DNA from: Jeotgalicoccus saudimassiliensis | Lineage (GTDB): Bacteria; Bacillota; Bacilli; Staphylococcales; Salinicoccaceae | Length of the DNA: 64,000 bases | Direction of reading: 5' to 3' | NCBI RefSeq assembly: GCF_000756715.1 | Contig: NZ_CCSE01000001.1 | Location: 1,394,001 to 1,458,000 of the forward strand | In this document: positions 5,506 through 58,358 of the stretch, piece by piece | How positions within the stretch are numbered: position 1 is the stretch's first letter | Layout of the letters: the number at the start of each line of letters is the position of its first letter | The notes under the pieces: generated by a model | Database searches by the model: none | Seen by the model: only the letters and a program-made list of their open reading frames with translations | Told to the model about the DNA's origin: nothing | Made by a program: the position numbers and the translations under genes

Positions 5506-6129
5506 CTACCACTTCTCTATATCGTCACGAATACTGTATTCCTGTTTTTCACCGTGCCGCTCTTCAAGTTTATTCTCGACGTCTTTCAGCGATACGCCTT
5601 CATTATTCAGCATCACCAGCATGTGATACAGAAGATCACTCGTCTCATCGACAAGTTCCTGTTTATCTTTATTTTTCGCAGCGATAATAACTTCCGTCAT
5701 CTCTTCACCGCATTTTTTCAGGATTTTATCGGTGCCTTTATCGATTAAATATTTAGTGTAAGATCCTTCTTCAGGTTTCTGAATTTTGTTCTGTACTGTG
5801 CGCTCCAGCGTCTGCAGGCTGAAATAGTCATCGTTAAAGCAGCTCTGTGTGCCTGTGTGACATGTTGGACCGTGCGGCACAACTTCTATCAGCAATGCGT
5901 CCTGATCGCAGTCCAGCTGCATTGAAACAACTTCCTGCACGTTACCGCTCGATTCACCTTTTTTCCATAATCGTTCTTTGGAACGCGAGTAAAACCAGAC
6001 GACATTGTCTGTTTTCGTTTTCTCAAAAGCTTCTTTATTCATAAAGCCGTTCATCAGCACCTGCTTTGTATTCGTATCCTGCAGTATGACTGACAGCATC
6101 CCGTTATTTTTACTGAAATCCGGTTTCAC
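5506..6129 (-). CDS. hisI: Bifunctional phosphoribosyl-AMP cyclohydrolase / phosphoribosyl-ATP pyrophosphatase
   Basis: HisIE catalyses steps 2 and 3 of histidine synthesis: removal of pyrophosphate from PR-ATP, then opening of the adenine ring of PR-AMP. At 207 residues it has the usual two-domain length. The HisI half (about 1-107) holds the metal-binding signature (DCDQDALLIEV and CHTGTQSCF). The HisE half (about 112-207) has the EEMTEVIIAAKN and DETSDLLYHMLVML helices of the MazG-like pyrophosphatase fold. The start overlaps the hisF stop by 4 nt. It is the last gene of the operon and is followed by a terminator. Confidence 0.95.
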   Translation of the reverse strand: MKPDFSKNNGMLSVILQDTNTKQVLMNGFMNKEAFEKTKTDNVVWFYSRSKERLWKKGESSGNVQEVVSMQLDCDQDALLIEVVPHGPTCHTGTQSCFNDDYFSLQTLERTVQNKIQKPEEGSYTKYLIDKGTDKILKKCGEEMTEVIIAAKNKDKQELVDETSDLLYHMLVMLNNEGVSLKDVENKLEERHGEKQEYSIRDDIEKW

Positions 6130-6887
6130 TGCACACGCACCTCGAATCCATCGTCAGCGAGCGCTTGTTTTAACTCACCAATCTGCACTTCTTCTCTATG
6201 GAATATTGATGCTGCAAGTCCTGCAGCTACTTTCGTTCTGCCGAAAAGATCTTTAAAGTGACCGATGCTGCCGGCACCGCCGCTCGCAATAACAGGAATG
6301 CTGACCATGTCTGCTGCCTGTTCTAAAAACTCAAGATCGAAGCCGCTCTTCACACCGTCGTGGTCCATGCTTGTAATCAGCAGTGCTCCCGCTCCGAGCT
6401 GTTCGCACTCAGCTATCCACTCTGCTGCTTTTTTATCTGCACGTTTCGTACCGCCGTGTGTATAGACATAGTAGTCTTCAAGGTCATTGCTGAACTTGAC
6501 ATCTACAGCAATAACAATACTTTCACTGCCGAATTCTTCTGCTGCTTCACGGATAAACTCGGGGTTGGATAATGCTGCAGAGTTAATGCTGACCTTATCA
6601 GCTCCTGCTTCAAGCAGCTGTTTAATATCATCTTTTGTTTTGATACCGCCGCCGATTGTCAGGGGAATTGATAACACGCTTGCTGTTTCGCGAATCGCAT
6701 CAAGCATCAGTGCGTGGCCTTCCTGAGTTTTCGAGATATCCAGGAAGACAAGTTCATCTGCACCTTCTTCGTTATATCTTTCAGCAAGCTCCGCCGGTTT
6801 GCCGATGTGCTGCAGGTCGACGAAGTTAACACCTTTAACTACTGCACCGTCTTTAACGTCGAGACATGGTATTATTTTTTTCTGCAT
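6126..6887 (-). CDS. hisF: Imidazole glycerol phosphate synthase cyclase subunit (HisF) with an altered ammonia gate
   Basis: HisF (253 aa, TIM barrel) makes IGP and AICAR from PRFAR and ammonia. Ammonia normally arrives through the barrel from the glutaminase HisH. The catalytic aspartates are present (PCLDVKDG, Asp10; AVDVKF). Against Thermotoga HisF, the tunnel gate is Arg5, Glu46, Lys99, Glu167. Here Glu46 (ADELVF) and Lys99 (GADKVS) are kept, but Arg5 is Lys4 (MQKKIIPC) and Glu167 is Ala (LGAGALLITS instead of GAGE). hisH, expected between hisB and hisA, is absent. The gate change fits an enzyme that uses free ammonia, which is an inference. The gene overlaps hisA by one base (TAATG). 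Confidence 0.95.
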   Translation of the reverse strand: MQKKIIPCLDVKDGAVVKGVNFVDLQHIGKPAELAERYNEEGADELVFLDISKTQEGHALMLDAIRETASVLSIPLTIGGGIKTKDDIKQLLEAGADKVSINSAALSNPEFIREAAEEFGSESIVIAVDVKFSNDLEDYYVYTHGGTKRADKKAAEWIAECEQLGAGALLITSMDHDGVKSGFDLEFLEQAADMVSIPVIASGGAGSIGHFKDLFGRTKVAAGLAASIFHREEVQIGELKQALADDGFEVRVQ

Positions 6888-7588
6888 TATTCAATTCCCT
6901 CCCAAAATTCATCAGTGTGACTGGATTTACCTACGATTGCCTCGGTTATGCCAAGACTCTCCAGCTTATCAAGATCTGCTTTATTTCTTACACCGCCGCT
7001 TGCGACTACTTTATGACGGGTTAAATCGTTAATTCGTGCTGTATTTTCAAAGTTCGGCCCAAGTCCCATACCGTCTTTATTTATATCCGTATAGATAATT
7101 CCGGCCAGGTCCAATGCTTCGATTTCAGCTAAGTATTCATCTATTTTAACGCCGCTGTTTTCAGTCCATCCGTTAATGTAAATGTCATCTTCCTTTGCAT
7201 CCACGCCCACGAATATTTTCCCGGGAAATTTTTTAACCGCTTCAGTCAGCCACGGCACATCAATAATTGCACGTGTGCCGAGTATAAAATACTCAACGCC
7301 CATTTCATGATACTTCCCGATTGTTTCAAGTGAACGCAGCCCGCCGCCGATTTCAAGCGGCAGTGAAGACAGCTCTGACAGTTTTTTTACGAGATTCGAT
7401 TCCAGCGCTTCTTGTTTCAGTGCACCCATTAAATCAACGACGTGAATTCTCGTTACCGATTTATATCCTGCATAGAACTCGAGTGCTTCTTCAGGCGTTC
7501 TTTTCATCTGTGATTTTTTCTCGTAATCCCCTTGTGACAAACGGACGTTCTGACCGTCAATTAAATCTATCGCCGGAATAATATTCAT
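6887..7588 (-). CDS. hisA: ProFAR isomerase (phosphoribosylformimino-AICAR ribotide isomerase)
   Basis: A 233-residue half-barrel-repeat TIM barrel, step 4 of histidine synthesis. The catalytic Asp of the first half is in IIPAIDLIDG (Asp8), the second in IYTDINKDGM; phosphate loops are EIGGGLRS and ASGGVRNK. It lies 47 nt after hisB with its own RBS (AAAGGGAG). Elsewhere in this operon neighbouring genes overlap or abut, so this gap is the site where hisH is missing. No remnant of hisH can be seen in it. Confidence 0.95.
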   Translation of the reverse strand: MNIIPAIDLIDGQNVRLSQGDYEKKSQMKRTPEEALEFYAGYKSVTRIHVVDLMGALKQEALESNLVKKLSELSSLPLEIGGGLRSLETIGKYHEMGVEYFILGTRAIIDVPWLTEAVKKFPGKIFVGVDAKEDDIYINGWTENSGVKIDEYLAEIEALDLAGIIYTDINKDGMGLGPNFENTARINDLTRHKVVASGGVRNKADLDKLESLGITEAIVGKSSHTDEFWEGIE

Positions 7589-7635
7589 GTGAAAACTCCC
7601 TTTTCCTATGCTGTTTTAATCTGTATATTATTACT

Positions 7636-8220
7636 CTACTCAATAACACCTTTTGAAGAAGGCACGCCGCTTTCCGATGACTGCAGTGCAATCTTCAGGC
7701 TGCGTGCAAAGCCTTTGAATATCGCTTCGATTTCATGATGTGAGTTGCCTGTTTTTAAAAGATCGATATGCAGTGTCATTCTCGAGTTCATTGCGACTGC
7801 ATTAAAGAACTCTTCTGTAAGTTCCGTATCAAAGTCGCCGACTTTCTCTCTCGAAATAACTGCATTAAAGCTGAGGTGAGGTCTGCCTGATAAATCAAGC
7901 ACGACACGTGCAAGTGATTCGTCCATCGGCAGGTACATTGAACCGTAGCGCTGATAGCTTTCTTTTTCAGCATACAGCTCTCTCAGCAGCTGACCGAGCA
8001 CTATACCGATATCTTCAACAGTGTGGTGACCGTCAACGTATAGATCACCTTCCGCCTTAATATTTACGTACAGTTCCGAGTGAAAACTGAACAGTGTCAG
8101 CATGTGGTCAAAAAATCCGATGCCCGTATCTATTTCAGACTCTTTAAAGTCCTTTTCATCATCTATTTCAACACTTAATTTTGTCTCTTTCGTTTCTCTG
8201 TCTTTGCTGTACCTAGTCAT
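7636..8220 (-). CDS. hisB: Imidazoleglycerol-phosphate dehydratase
   Basis: A monofunctional HisB of 194 aa, normal for Firmicutes, catalysing dehydration of IGP to imidazole-acetol phosphate. The manganese-binding histidine motifs are visible: GFFDHMLT, the first HHTVEDIG and the second NSHHEIEAIFKG. The start overlaps the end of hisC by 8 nt. The stop is followed by the 47-nt gap before hisA where hisH would normally sit. Confidence 0.95.
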   Translation of the reverse strand: MTRYSKDRETKETKLSVEIDDEKDFKESEIDTGIGFFDHMLTLFSFHSELYVNIKAEGDLYVDGHHTVEDIGIVLGQLLRELYAEKESYQRYGSMYLPMDESLARVVLDLSGRPHLSFNAVISREKVGDFDTELTEEFFNAVAMNSRMTLHIDLLKTGNSHHEIEAIFKGFARSLKIALQSSESGVPSSKGVIE

Positions 8221-9199
8221 ACGATTTACCCCATTCTGTAATCAGTTCTTTCAGTCTCGGATACTCATCTTCATCGATAATTGAAAAACGTGCGGCATTT
8301 TTTAAATTCGGTTCATCGTACACTCTGCCCCTGTAGCCATTTTTATAAAGATATTCATATAAATCTTTCGCTTTGTCACCGTAAGTAAATACAAAGTTTG
8401 TATGCGTGGGTTTAATTTTAATGTGTCGGCGCACTGTTTCAAATGCGTCAGCAAGCGACTGCTGCAGTTTCTTCTGGTATTCAAACCAGTCGTTCAACTG
8501 AGCCTCATTGCTGAGTAATTCACTGCCCAAATTTAAAGTTAAACTGTTTAACGGATACGGGTGATTAATTCTCGTAATCGTTTCATAAGTTTTTCCTTTT
8601 GCGATAACGATACCGATTCTTAAGCCTGCCAGACCGTATACTTTGCTCATCGTACGGACGATAATGATGTGCTCGCCTTCCGGTACCGGGTGATCCAGTG
8701 CAAATTCACCGTATGCTTCATCAATTACTAAGTATCCTCCAATCGATTTCATTGCATCCGCAAGCTCATTAATAAAATGACTCGGCAGCAGTACGCCTGT
8801 CGGATTATGCGGATTGGAAATAAAGAATACCGATGGTTTCTTAGCTTTAATTTCACTGATTGTTAAATCATAATCGAACGAATAATCTTCACGGGACGGT
8901 ACTGAGTAATACCGGAATCCCACCTGATTGGTATAAATCTGATACATGACAAAGTCCGGATTCAGTGACATTACACCATTTTTCCCCAGTGTCATAATAA
9001 TTTTCTGCAGCCATTCATCCGAACCATTTGCCACTTCAATGTTTTCCGGTGAAAAACCGTTACGTTCTGCATACAGTCTTTTGAAACGTGTCAGTTCCTC
9101 TTCCGGATACACTTCAATATTTGTACGGTTGACCGCCTTAATAATCTGTTCTTTTGAAAGAGGTGACTTCGGTGAAGTATTTCTGTCCATACTGATCAT
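8213..9199 (-). CDS. hisC: Histidinol-phosphate aminotransferase
   Basis: A 328-residue fold-type I PLP aminotransferase that converts imidazole-acetol phosphate to histidinol phosphate. The PLP-lysine is Lys186 (TMSKVYGLAGLRIG). SNPHNPTG (128-135) and DEAYGEF (160-166) form the cofactor site, and AARFSI near the C-terminus carries the carboxylate-binding Arg. The start ATG at 9199 has an RBS (GGAG) inside the 3' end of hisD, one base from its stop codon. It is slightly shorter than many HisC proteins (about 350 aa), with a short N-terminal arm. Its position inside the operon makes the assignment secure over other class I aminotransferases. Confidence 0.94.
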   Translation of the reverse strand: MISMDRNTSPKSPLSKEQIIKAVNRTNIEVYPEEELTRFKRLYAERNGFSPENIEVANGSDEWLQKIIMTLGKNGVMSLNPDFVMYQIYTNQVGFRYYSVPSREDYSFDYDLTISEIKAKKPSVFFISNPHNPTGVLLPSHFINELADAMKSIGGYLVIDEAYGEFALDHPVPEGEHIIIVRTMSKVYGLAGLRIGIVIAKGKTYETITRINHPYPLNSLTLNLGSELLSNEAQLNDWFEYQKKLQQSLADAFETVRRHIKIKPTHTNFVFTYGDKAKDLYEYLYKNGYRGRVYDEPNLKNAARFSIIDEDEYPRLKELITEWGKSYD

Positions 9200-9200
9200 A

Positions 9201-10433
9201 TTATCGCTCCGTTCTAATATTTAATGACTCGTAGTGCGCATCGAGTCCTTCCTTTTGTGCAATTGTCTTCGCAGCTTCTGCGATATTATTGTATGTTCCC
9301 TCTTTTAGATTAATCACTGCATGACTTGTTAAAAAATCATTAACATTCAGTCCATGACTGAAACGTCCGGTCTGATTCGTCGGCAGCACGTGTGAAGGAC
9401 CTGCTGCATAGTCACCAATTGCTTCCGGTGAGTATTTGCCGATAAAGACCGCGCCTGCATAACGGATTTTGCGGCTGATATTCTGTTCATCAGCATGCTG
9501 GATTGATACGTGTTCCGGTGCAATGAAGTTAATTACATCTATCAGTGCTTCTCGTGTATCTGCAATTTGATAATGATTGTTTTTCAGCGATTCACGAATA
9601 ACGTCTGCCCTTACCTGAGAGCTGATTAAACGGTCCACCTCACTTTGAATACCTTCAATAACTTCCTGATTATCTGCGAGCAGGAAAGTCCGTGCATTCA
9701 CATCGTGTTCCGCCTGGGCAAAAATATCGTAAGCGACTGCTGTATAGTCCGCGGATTCATCGACGTACAGTAAAATTTCGCTTGGGCCGGCAATCATATC
9801 GATACCGACATCTCCAAATACTTGTTTTTTCGCAAGGGCAACGTACTTATTTCCGGGCCCGACGATTTTATCGACCTTCTTAATAGACTCTGTACCGTAT
9901 GCAAGCGCTGCGATGGCCTGAGCGCCGCCCACAGTATAAACCTCGGTCACGCCTGCAAGATACAGGGCGGCGAATGTAATGTTGTCTTCTGTGAAAGTTG
10001 GCGTTACAGCAACGATATTTCCGACACCTGCCGCTGTTGCCGGAACTGCTGTCATCAGTACACTTGAAGGGTATAACGCTGTCCCTCCCGGAATGTAAAT
10101 ACCGATACGTTCAAGCGGATGATAGACATAAGAGAATTCACCATCTTCGAAGTCTTTATATTTTATTGACTGCTGATAATTGGCAATACGTTCTTTTATA
10201 AGTATCAGCGAATTTTGTTCGTCAATACTTAAATTATCAAAACTATTTTTCAATTTTTCTGCAGGCACTTTAAAATCTTCGATTTTCTGGCCATCGAACT
10301 GTGCTGTGTATTTTTTTAGTGCATCATCTTTATTCTGTTTTACGTCTTCTATTATAGAAAGCACATTATCGAGGCTTTCTTTATCTGTGCTGTCATCAGC
10401 TGTAAAATTTTGTTTAAAGGTCTCCGCATTCAT
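9201..10433 (-). CDS. hisD: Histidinol dehydrogenase
   Basis: A 410-residue zinc enzyme that oxidises histidinol to histidine in two NAD-dependent steps. Family motifs are visible: YIPGGTALYPSSVLMTAVPA, DMIAGPSEILLYVDE, the zinc-ligand segment FAQAEHD, and YAAGPSHVLPT near the C-terminus with the second catalytic histidine region. The start codon overlaps the hisG stop (ATGA). Length is close to the usual 415-430. Confidence 0.95.
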   Translation of the reverse strand: MNAETFKQNFTADDSTDKESLDNVLSIIEDVKQNKDDALKKYTAQFDGQKIEDFKVPAEKLKNSFDNLSIDEQNSLILIKERIANYQQSIKYKDFEDGEFSYVYHPLERIGIYIPGGTALYPSSVLMTAVPATAAGVGNIVAVTPTFTEDNITFAALYLAGVTEVYTVGGAQAIAALAYGTESIKKVDKIVGPGNKYVALAKKQVFGDVGIDMIAGPSEILLYVDESADYTAVAYDIFAQAEHDVNARTFLLADNQEVIEGIQSEVDRLISSQVRADVIRESLKNNHYQIADTREALIDVINFIAPEHVSIQHADEQNISRKIRYAGAVFIGKYSPEAIGDYAAGPSHVLPTNQTGRFSHGLNVNDFLTSHAVINLKEGTYNNIAEAAKTIAQKEGLDAHYESLNIRTER

Positions 10434-11035
10434 TCAATCACTCCAATTTCGCTTAAAAATTCATAGATGCTGTCTTCTTTCGTATAAAACGTCTGCTTAT
10501 TCGCAATCAGACGCGCCTGGACGTCGAGAATCTTTTCGTATTCAATCAGACCATTATCACGCAGCGTGTTCCCTGTCTGCACGATATCCACAATACCGTC
10601 TGCCAGACCGAGAATCGGTGCAAGTTCCACTGAACCGTTTAAATGAATCAGCGATACCGGCTGCTGCTGGTCGTTAAAATATTTGCGCGCTATATTTGTA
10701 TATTTGGAAGCTACTGTGTTGAAGTGCTCAACATCCGGAGGCCCCGCTATTGCAAAATGGCATTTACCAAATGGAAGACCCGATACATTTAAGTAGCTGA
10801 ACACTTCTTCTTCAAGAATATCACTGCCGACTATACCGATATCTGCAACGCCGCGTTCCACATAAACAGGAACGTCAGGTCCTTTTGCAAAGATAAAGCG
10901 AATGTCATCCACAATTGTATAGAGTGCACGTGATTCATCTTTTAATACTTTACTGTATTTATACAGTTCATATTTCTCCAGATATGAAACGAAATCATCA
11001 AACAAACGTCCTTTGGATAATGCTACTGTAATCAT
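10430..11035 (-). CDS. hisG: ATP phosphoribosyltransferase, short catalytic subunit
   Basis: The first enzyme of histidine synthesis, condensing ATP and PRPP. At 201 aa it is the short HisG form that lacks the C-terminal histidine-sensing domain and needs HisZ. The PRPP loop is visible as IVDIVQTGNTLRDNGL, and the N-terminus TVALSKGRLFDD is typical. It overlaps the hisZ stop by 4 nt, as expected for two subunits of one complex. Confidence 0.95.
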   Translation of the reverse strand: MITVALSKGRLFDDFVSYLEKYELYKYSKVLKDESRALYTIVDDIRFIFAKGPDVPVYVERGVADIGIVGSDILEEEVFSYLNVSGLPFGKCHFAIAGPPDVEHFNTVASKYTNIARKYFNDQQQPVSLIHLNGSVELAPILGLADGIVDIVQTGNTLRDNGLIEYEKILDVQARLIANKQTFYTKEDSIYEFLSEIGVIE

Positions 11036-11838
11036 AAAATCCCTCCGTCTGTCAGGTTTAATGCGATGCCGAATGCATTACTGTTATACTCTCCACCGCT
11101 TAATATTGCTGAGTTGGAATTTAAAAATGCCTGGAAATATAAACCATTATAATAATTTTGCGGTGAACGGAAAGACAGATCCAGAATGAATTTTGTTTCT
11201 TCTTCGTCTATCTTTTCTTTTAAATGTGCAATTGCCTGCATCACTTCTGTATCTCCAAAAATGCTGCTGACCATTTTAAACTGATCGCTTACTTTCGCAC
11301 TCATGATTTTATATAAGTCGTGATTTTTGCCGAGCAGTTCACGAAGTTCTGAAATGTTTTTTGTATAGATGAGCTGACGCATTGTATCCGGCAGATTATA
11401 TTTTTCAATAAATAAATCAATCAGCTGATCATTATTTATAACCAGGGTTTTAATTGATGTTTTTGCACATTCTTCAACAAAATTCATATGCATTAAAAGT
11501 GCATTTATAATGTCCTCTTCCTCGGCTTTATAAATTTCGACACCAGCCTGATAGAAAGATTCGTTCTCTCTGACAACCGGTCCAAAATAACCGAAACGTG
11601 TATCGTCTGAATAGAAGTTGCTGTTGAAATTCAGCAGCGTCCGAGTCCAGTCGCTGCGGATCGCATACATTGCATTACTTCTTTCAAATACGACACTCGT
11701 CGGGTGATGGTATTTATCATCCATGGAAAAAGGTTCTATCATGTTCATATCAACCAGGGTGTAACCTGTTTCGTCGAGGAGTCCCATATATTTCTCTCCA
11801 AGAGCGAGTCTTTGCAAAATGAATTTGTTGTTTGTCAT
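11032..11838 (-). CDS. hisZ: ATP phosphoribosyltransferase regulatory subunit
   Basis: A 268-residue paralogue of class II histidyl-tRNA synthetase catalytic domains, shorter than a true synthetase and lacking its anticodon-binding domain. Motif-2-like segments (AMYAIRSDWTRTLLNF; GYFGPVVRENES) and the late GGEYNSNAFGIALNL segment are recognisable. It pairs with short HisG to restore feedback control and activity. It is the first gene of the operon, 144 bp from the divergent hisR, with one of the two hisR-type palindromes close to its start. Confidence 0.92.
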   Translation of the reverse strand: MTNNKFILQRLALGEKYMGLLDETGYTLVDMNMIEPFSMDDKYHHPTSVVFERSNAMYAIRSDWTRTLLNFNSNFYSDDTRFGYFGPVVRENESFYQAGVEIYKAEEEDIINALLMHMNFVEECAKTSIKTLVINNDQLIDLFIEKYNLPDTMRQLIYTKNISELRELLGKNHDLYKIMSAKVSDQFKMVSSIFGDTEVMQAIAHLKEKIDEEETKFILDLSFRSPQNYYNGLYFQAFLNSNSAILSGGEYNSNAFGIALNLTDGGIL

Positions 11839-56761: not shown

Positions 56762-57475
56762 TTAGCGTTGGAGTTGTGCGGCTGCTTTTATAAATGCTCT
56801 GAATATTTTCTTTGATGCTTCGTCTACTAAATAAGTTCCTTCGGGATGCCACTGAATACCGATAACAAAATCGTGCTGAGCACTCTCCACCGCTTCGACA
56901 ATTCTGTCGTCTGTCATTGCAGAAACTTGCAAACCCTCCGCCGGGTATTTGTTTGCCTGATGATGAAAACTGTTTGTCCTAATTTCTGTCTCACCGAGAA
57001 TCTCATGAAGTTTCGTACCTTCTATAATGTTAACTTTATGGGATAAATAATCTTTCGCAGCATCCTGGTTATGCTTCATCGTACTGTCGCCGTGCTGGGA
57101 ATAGATATCCTGATACATCGTGCCGCCCTGCTGCACATTTAATATTTGAGCTCCCCGGCATATACCGAGAATCGGCTTGCCTGCTTCAAGGGCATATTCT
57201 ATCAGTTTCATTTCATAGAGATCACGCCCTGGTTCTATCGCACCCATTTTCTGATGCGGACTTTCTCCAAAAAATGAAGGCTCAATATCATCACCGCCTG
57301 ATAGCAGCAGTCCGTCAATATTCTCTATCTGCTTTTTAATTAATACGTCGTCTTCTACCTTAGCCAGTATTACCGGTACACCTTCTTCACCTGCTATCGC
57401 AATACTGTAATTCTCAGGCAGCCTGAGTCCGTCATTGCTTATAAACGTTGTTACACCAATAACCGGGTTAGTCAT
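56762..57475 (-). CDS. Gamma-glutamyl-gamma-aminobutyrate hydrolase-like peptidase C26, copy 2
   Basis: A 237-residue class I glutamine-amidotransferase-fold hydrolase of the PuuD group. Nucleophile in GICRGAQIL, catalytic pair in GIQWHPEGTY, substrate loop LLSGGDDIEPSFF. The family cleaves gamma-glutamyl bonds (gamma-Glu-GABA, some gamma-glutamyl amines). RBS AAGGAG; ATG 57475. It lies 95 bp before the binding protein on the same strand. Not HisH: the nucleophile context and length differ. Confidence 0.87.
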   Translation of the reverse strand: MTNPVIGVTTFISNDGLRLPENYSIAIAGEEGVPVILAKVEDDVLIKKQIENIDGLLLSGGDDIEPSFFGESPHQKMGAIEPGRDLYEMKLIEYALEAGKPILGICRGAQILNVQQGGTMYQDIYSQHGDSTMKHNQDAAKDYLSHKVNIIEGTKLHEILGETEIRTNSFHHQANKYPAEGLQVSAMTDDRIVEAVESAQHDFVIGIQWHPEGTYLVDEASKKIFRAFIKAAAQLQR

Positions 57476-57556
57476 ATACTCTCTCCTTACATTTAGCATT
57501 TCCCTTAGATTTTATCAGAATATTTAAAACTTAACACTAAAAAGAAAAACAGCAGT

Positions 57557-58267
57557 TTATTTACCTGCTGCTTCTACAAATCTTCTTATAATATTCTGAG
57601 AGGATTCATCAGTATGATAACGCTCCTCAGGGTGCCACTGCAGTCCGATAACGAAGTCGTGCTCAGTACTCTCTATCGCTTCTATAATGCCGTCGTTTGT
57701 TTTGGCAGCAACTTGGAATCCCGGTGCGACTTCATTTACCGCCTGGTGATGGTTGCTGATTGTAAATATTTCTTCCTGTTTAACAATATCGTACATCTTA
57801 CTATCTTTTTTAATATTCACTTTATGAGTGAAATGCTCTTTGCTGTCATTTCTCTGGTGTTTAATCAATTCTGTACCTTCTTCTATCTGACTGTAAATAT
57901 CCTGGTATATCGTTCCGCCCTCGTGAATATTCAGCATATGTGAACCGCGGCAGATGCCGAGAACTGGTATGTCTCTTTCCAAAGCGTAATCGATAAGTTT
58001 CCATTCATACTCATCACGTTCAGGTTCTATATTACCTAGTTTCTGATGCGGATCCTGATCATATAATGCCGGATCCACATCATCGCCGCCGGTCAGCAGC
58101 AATGCATCTATATTCTCAACTTGCGCTTTAATTAAATCTTCATTCTCAATTTCAGGTAGCAGCACCGGAACCCCATGTTCTCTGCTGATGACATCTATAA
58201 ATCTCTTAGGGACTTCCTGATTGTTTTTACCGATAAAAGTTGTGATTCCTATAAGCGACTGCTTCAT
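57557..58267 (-). CDS. Gamma-glutamyl-gamma-aminobutyrate hydrolase-like peptidase C26, copy 1
   Basis: A 236-residue paralogue of the preceding gene (same loop order: LLTGGDDVDPALY, GICRGSHMLN, GLQWHPEERY). Clear RBS (AAGGAG) for ATG 58267. The duplicated pair suggests two gamma-glutamyl substrates or a heterodimer. With the downstream binding protein it may form a scavenging unit for gamma-glutamyl compounds; the link is by position only. Confidence 0.87.
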   Translation of the reverse strand: MKQSLIGITTFIGKNNQEVPKRFIDVISREHGVPVLLPEIENEDLIKAQVENIDALLLTGGDDVDPALYDQDPHQKLGNIEPERDEYEWKLIDYALERDIPVLGICRGSHMLNIHEGGTIYQDIYSQIEEGTELIKHQRNDSKEHFTHKVNIKKDSKMYDIVKQEEIFTISNHHQAVNEVAPGFQVAAKTNDGIIEAIESTEHDFVIGLQWHPEERYHTDESSQNIIRRFVEAAGK

Positions 58268-58358
58268 AATGATTACTCCTTCTATATTCAATTCTAAACT
58301 CAATAGCTATATATAGCCGGATTCAAAAGTTTTTAATCATTTTGAACATAAAAATTAA

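Follow-up and report, generated by a model that had tools for sequence, protein, structure and literature searches.

A histidine operon without hisH in Jeotgalicoccus and altered HisH-facing residues of its HisF

HisF with and without HisH in described systems

The closest described enzyme is the heterodimeric HisFH IGP synthase of Thermotoga maritima and Escherichia coli. In simulations of the T. maritima enzyme, Q123 of HisF initially recognised glutamine through its carboxylate and afterwards stabilised it in the HisH site (PMC9052757); in a second study, the E167A substitution in HisF weakened HisH binding tenfold (PMC9032424), and R249 of HisF formed a hinge with W123 of HisH (PMC9032424). 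Further papers describe HisF working without its partner. In vitro, HisF can draw on free ammonium (PMC11350729); in Klebsiella, high ammonium levels compensated for a hisH mutation (PMC5919458); and a Corynebacterium glutamicum ΔhisH strain grew normally without histidine (unpublished result cited in PMC3896937), which was attributed to ammonia use by HisF. Two sources conflict over the need for hisH in E. coli: a review describes hisH mutants of E. coli and S. typhimurium as auxotrophic despite ammonia (PMC3896937), whereas another paper calls hisH of E. coli non-essential in aerobic data because HisF can use NH3 (PMC3423039). Natural loss of hisH, together with its explanation by ammonia, is already known from Blochmanniella endosymbionts, where hisH pseudogenes are reported in several lineages and ammonia is proposed as the substitute (PMC12779916).

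The window analysed here, a stretch of 64,000 nucleotides of the Jeotgalicoccus saudimassiliensis genome, encodes a HisF that has the family, fold, catalytic aspartates and operon context of the HisFH enzymes of T. maritima and E. coli. The HisH subunit, however, is absent, and docking, gate and glutamine-contact residues are replaced. The case resembles Blochmanniella in natural hisH loss and in the ammonia-fed histidine synthesis proposed for it; but those bacteria are ant endosymbionts, whereas here the hosts are Bacilli, the gene is often cleanly gone and HisF carries a signature. HisH-independent synthesis through ammonia use by HisF, as proposed here, has its parallel in C. glutamicum, which still encodes a functional hisH (PMC3896937), unlike the window genome. 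The HisF2/WbuZ and AglZ cyclases of acetamidino modification belong to the same barrel superfamily. This identity was rejected, as the window HisF scored below both cut-offs (257 < 299.7 and 218 < 310 bits) and sits in a his operon. The recurrent loss of hisH in Bacilli and the accompanying HisF signature were not found in the literature searched: the open-licence papers, seen in partial text, yielded no description of the signature, and queries naming Jeotgalicoccus or Planococcus yielded no match among them.

The operon, the missing gene and its history

All his genes of the window lie on the minus strand in the order hisZ-hisG-hisD-hisC-hisB-hisA-hisF-hisIE (hisZGDCBAF-IE). The first gene, hisZ (11032..11838), had PRK12294 as its best model, below cut-off, and was followed by a short-form hisG (10430..11035). 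hisD (9201..10433) and hisB (7636..8220) were likewise assigned. For hisC (8213..9199) the best model, TIGR01141, stayed below its cut-off, as did the best models for hisA (6887..7588). hisF (6126..6887), assigned by the NCBIfam model, encodes the HisH-less cyclase, and the GTG start of the bifunctional hisIE (5506..6129) overlaps its stop. Between hisB and hisA only 47 bp remain (7589..7635, minus strand), at the site of hisH in relatives; in hisH-bearing relatives 574-585 nt separate the alignment ends of the two genes. Gene order and coordinates agree with the first-pass annotation, which had placed hisB and hisA 47 bp apart without hisH. Its further claim that no hisH fragment is left calls for a slight qualification: GGGAGTTTT, upstream of the window hisA, matches the hisH 3′ end of J. 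halotolerans and J. psychrophilus. This segment is perhaps a vestige of hisH, or perhaps merely a conserved ribosome-binding site. No known RNA family was detected in the window at gathering thresholds.

The genome-wide HisH search that the annotation had called for was carried out on the whole genome, a single contig of 2.19 Mb (99.67% complete), and gave no match to the HisH model TIGR01855 over its 105.4-bit cut-off, an absence that concerns proteins within reach of this model and not a glutaminase unrelated to it. Only two weak matches were obtained at E <= 0.001 (20.6 and 19.9 bits), namely a Peptidase_C26 protein (57557-58303) and a GuaA-like ORF. A hisH located elsewhere was rejected on this basis, and the suggestion that such a HisH tolerates the altered gate is not supported. 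An assembly gap was rejected as well, the genome being one contig and the inspected short hisH-less spacers containing no N. The proteins at 56762-57499 and 57557-58303 are adjacent Peptidase_C26 paralogues with the class-I glutaminase fold and, as had been stated before, are not HisH.

The absence was not confined to this genome. Within the family (33 genomes), hisF was found over cut-off in 27 and hisH in 18. Seven of the nine sampled Jeotgalicoccus lacked hisH, comprising the window genome, J. coquinae, J. aerolatus, J. marinus, J. nanhaiensis, another species and an 81%-complete MAG, while J. halotolerans and J. psychrophilus retained it; two sister-genus MAGs, Salinicoccus UBA3372 (80% complete) and Ca. 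S. stercoripullorum (99%), also lacked it. Across the order (157 genomes; hisF in 97, hisH in 88) all nine discordant genomes belonged to this family, and each of the 70 hisF genomes outside it had a hisH match, those of G128 being two partial ones. In a class sample of 398 genomes, hisF was found in 345 and hisH in 331, with four genomes showing hisH without a hisF match. Comparison of the lists by eye gave 18 hisF-only genomes. Besides the window genome and Ca. S. stercoripullorum these were 16 further genomes, of which ten make up all the listed hisF genomes of the genus g83. The earlier proposal that this lineage lost the glutaminase is supported, and the loss is clade-wide.

A recheck of 25 hisF-only genomes (the window genome and 24 others) again gave no HisH over the cut-off. 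Sub-cut-off matches of 36-40 bits were seen in G187 and G455, and the HisFs of G179, G223 and G398 (3/25) scored below the HisF cut-off. No hisH match was found in eight operons (8.6-14 kb) from eight of the 16 class genomes, nor in the short flanks of all 16 loci. In G455 hisF comes immediately after hisB, whereas in two congeners hisH lies between them (hisB-hisH-hisF). Measured between alignment ends, J. marinus and G006 had a hisB-hisA spacer of 18 nt, UBA3372 one of 61 nt and the other measured Jeotgalicoccus spacers of 44-50 nt. In Ca. S. stercoripullorum, on the other hand, a hisH pseudogene occupies the site between the two genes (locus L042, around 8183-8414). Its start overlaps the hisB stop, its frame is soon interrupted by a stop codon, and a recognisable C-terminal piece lies in a different frame, the whole being about 230 nt long against about 575 nt.

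On the HisF tree the HisH-less sequences formed seven separate groups, with support of only 50-71 at some intervening nodes: Jeotgalicoccus with G398, UBA3372, stercoripullorum, g83 with G166, G187, G455, and G179 with G223. The first of these also contains the two hisH-bearing species. Jeotgalicoccus may have lost hisH several times, or once in its ancestor with a later import of hisH-hisA-hisF into J. halotolerans and J. psychrophilus; the second history is quite possible but somewhat doubtful. In its favor, J. psychrophilus and MAG009 (L039 and L040), which differ in hisH state, are only 81% and 77% identical in hisA and hisF but 94-96% in hisB, hisC and hisIE, with dS of 1.0-1.1 in hisA-hisF versus 0.5-0.6 in the flanking his genes. 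Moreover, the rpoB and gyrB tree (rpoB alone for MAG009) joined J. psychrophilus with MAG009 (96) and J. halotolerans with J. nanhaiensis (92), its other inner nodes being weak, and G398, a member of another family, shares the hisH-less operon, its HisC and HisD being sister to Jeotgalicoccus. Against an import, HisF of both hisH-keeping species grouped inside Jeotgalicoccus with J. aerolatus (support 99 and 80 in two trees), their HisH fell beside Salinicoccus HisH (67), as expected for vertical descent, and HisA, HisB and HisIE of G398 did not group with Jeotgalicoccus alone.

The HisA and HisF trees divided Jeotgalicoccus alike; the rpoB and gyrB tree disagreed, with weak support at several inner nodes. 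UBA3372 and the hisH-bearing YB14 were likewise far more divergent in hisA-hisF than in the flanking genes. Given this excess divergence between genomes that differ in hisH state, exchange of hisA-hisF as one block is probable. The HisF of G398 (L235) fell inside Jeotgalicoccus, and the hisH-less operon of G398 was likely acquired by transfer, although single-gene trees disagree on the source. A sharp break was also observed in hisD between the window and J. coquinae (dS 0.69 versus 0.01-0.04).

HisF residues in genomes without hisH

The window HisF passed the NCBIfam HisF model (323.9 bits, cut-off 294.55) and is identical to that of J. coquinae. Its AF2 model (pLDDT 90.6) had a TM score of 0.95 to chain A of 1gpw. 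Together with this HisF fold, the catalytic D11, D130 and D176, the location in a his operon and purifying selection identify the protein as HisF. Positions below are in T. maritima numbering unless given as those of the window. At the HisH side the window protein has K4 (R5), E122 (Q123) and A168 (E167), while E45, D97, K98, R251 and the catalytic D10, D129 and D177 are kept, so that positions 5, 98, 123, 167 and 249 read K, D, E, A and R. The first-pass annotation had correctly called the changes at R5 and E167, the retention of E46 and K99 and the intact aspartates, and had overlooked Q123E.

To place these changes, 96 HisFs with hisH were aligned with 25 without. The former comprised all 18 of the family, 13 of the 70 found elsewhere in the order, 14 class picks and, of 59 distant contig loci, the 51 in which hisH lay inside the fetched flank. 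The other eight distant loci were excluded; five of these had standard residues and three had changes at D98. At positions 5, 98, 123, 167 and 249, a set defined in this analysis and not a published definition, R-D-Q-E-R was present in 96/96 HisFs with hisH and altered in 24 of the 25 without. The sole unaltered one belongs to the species with the visible hisH pseudogene. The hisH-keeping J. halotolerans and J. psychrophilus have the standard R5, Q123 and E167, not the residues of the window, and J. aerolatus, which lost hisH, nevertheless retained Q123 and E167. The Akkermansia MAG HisFs L079, L082 and L095 showed D98 replaced by A, N or T, with Q123S in L079; they suggested another loss but were left out of the counts, since hisF is separated there from hisA and hisH.

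The 57 columns conserved at >=98% in the hisH-bearing set were then ordered by how many of the 12 HisH-less lineages break them. Q123 was the strongest marker (10 lineages, 23/25 sequences), followed by R5 and R249 (six lineages each; 14 and 8 sequences), D98 (five lineages, 9 sequences), I93 and E167 (four lineages each; 12 and 7 sequences) and A70 and K179 (four lineages and 4 sequences each). G30, L50 and T171 were each broken in 11 sequences but only 2 lineages, A97 in 8 sequences of one lineage, and I199 in 6 sequences of three. HisFs of G179 and G223 were also altered at E46 and K99. The catalytic D11, D130 and D176 showed no change in the 25 HisH-less HisFs. Six of the top eight columns were among the seven counted interface positions (5, 93, 98, 99, 123, 167 and 249); the hypergeometric value of 5e-6 serves as a guide only, because this list was drawn after seeing the ranking, partly from two papers, because the lineages share ancestry, and because the HisH-less sequences lie farther from the consensus overall (mean 0.46 versus 0.32, with only two HisH-bearing HisFs reaching the HisH-less median). 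In g83 and G166 (L219-L225, L227-L230), L50Y, T171N and G30A were observed at columns that are invariant elsewhere, each in 11/25 sequences; these positions perhaps lie near the active site.

Probable ammonia use by HisF alone

These results suggest that the IGP synthase of the window is very probably HisF alone, using free ammonia, whose HisH-facing mouth has lost its constraint. After loss of hisH from the operon, HisF would keep its fold and PRFAR-cyclising active site and would make IGP and AICAR from free ammonia in the cell, while the barrel's N-terminal mouth (R5, D98, Q123, E167, R249) would be freed from HisH docking, tunnel gating and glutamine binding. Mouth residues would thus change and catalytic residues stay fixed because no HisH is left to dock, gate or serve. 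Given the roles ascribed to Q123, E167 and R249 in the available literature, their changes are best read as the disappearance of these roles along with HisH. Consistent with a working enzyme, dN/dS of hisF was 0.060-0.069 in three pairs from the window clade, compared with 0.05-0.24 in four HisH-bearing pairs; several of the dS values are near saturation. Points that weigh against this reading are the lack of Amt in Jeotgalicoccus described below, the conflicting statements on E. coli hisH, the Q123 and E167 retained by J. aerolatus, the low HisF scores of G179, G223 and G398 with E46 and K99 altered in the first two, and the sub-cut-off HisH-model matches of G187 and G455.

The first-pass annotation had viewed the gate changes as two compensating substitutions that tuned HisF for external ammonia. 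The pattern at positions 5, 93, 98, 123, 167 and 249 fits loss of constraint better, changes at R5 and E167 being confined to 14 and 7 of the 25 HisH-less HisFs against 23 for Q123, and 'external' ammonia is doubtful because the nine Jeotgalicoccus genomes yielded no Amt ammonium transporter; Amt was accordingly rejected as the ammonia source. Amt was present in 8/12 g6 genomes and absent from the remaining 21 family genomes, these nine included. Among the hisF genomes of the family it occurred in 0/9 without and 8/18 with HisH (Fisher 0.026), an association confounded because all Amt genomes belong to one genus.

Adaptive retuning, in which the acidic residue at 123 and the loss of Arg5 and Glu167 were selected to admit ammonia or ammonium from solvent, was considered rather unlikely. 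Where Q123 was changed, Glu or Asp took its place in 20/23 sequences; counted by lineage, 8/10 were acidic, against the 22% expected for replacement of Gln from BLOSUM62 (binomial 0.0002), and with related lineages merged, 4/6 (binomial 0.025). R5K recurred, being found in Jeotgalicoccus, G398 and some of g83, and an acidic 123 was present in all seven sequences without Glu167. However, only a few lineages are involved, some of them connected by recombination or transfer; Glu is in any case the most likely single substitute for Gln; and Ser and Ala occur too. Special tuning was perhaps not needed, because E. coli HisF is reported to use NH3 (PMC3423039), so an ordinary HisF may already suffice. 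The acidic preference at 123 leaves room for some possible adaptation.

Supply of HisF by another glutamine amidotransferase, of the GuaA or PabA/TrpG type or one of the C26 proteins at 56762 and 57557, is highly improbable: GuaA-like and C26 proteins are encoded in the genome, but at E <= 0.001 the HisH model found only the two matches of 20.6 and 19.9 bits (cut-off 105.4), and the partner face of HisF is altered, including the glutamine-contacting Q123. A decaying or inactive operon with HisF on its way out is still less credible, since the hisH pseudogene of one relative stands against open and assigned remaining his genes in the window, hisF dN/dS of about 0.06, catalytic aspartates fixed in 25/25 and a hisH-less state that is clade-wide.

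On the reading that HisF acts alone on free ammonia, a broader proposal can be put forward tentatively, and may well not hold in full: that a HisH-less, ammonia-fed IGP synthase is recurrent in Bacilli, with an acidic 123 as a new ammonium-recruiting mouth, hisA-hisF without hisH as a unit moving between species and a five-residue HisF fingerprint that tells the presence of HisH. IGP synthase is a model enzyme in the study of ammonia channelling and of allostery, and the repeated loss, the close species differing in hisH and the decaying copy provide a natural experiment on the HisF residues that serve only the partner. They make it testable whether free ammonia sustains the IGP step in living cells. 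For annotators and modellers, the absence of hisH need not imply histidine auxotrophy.
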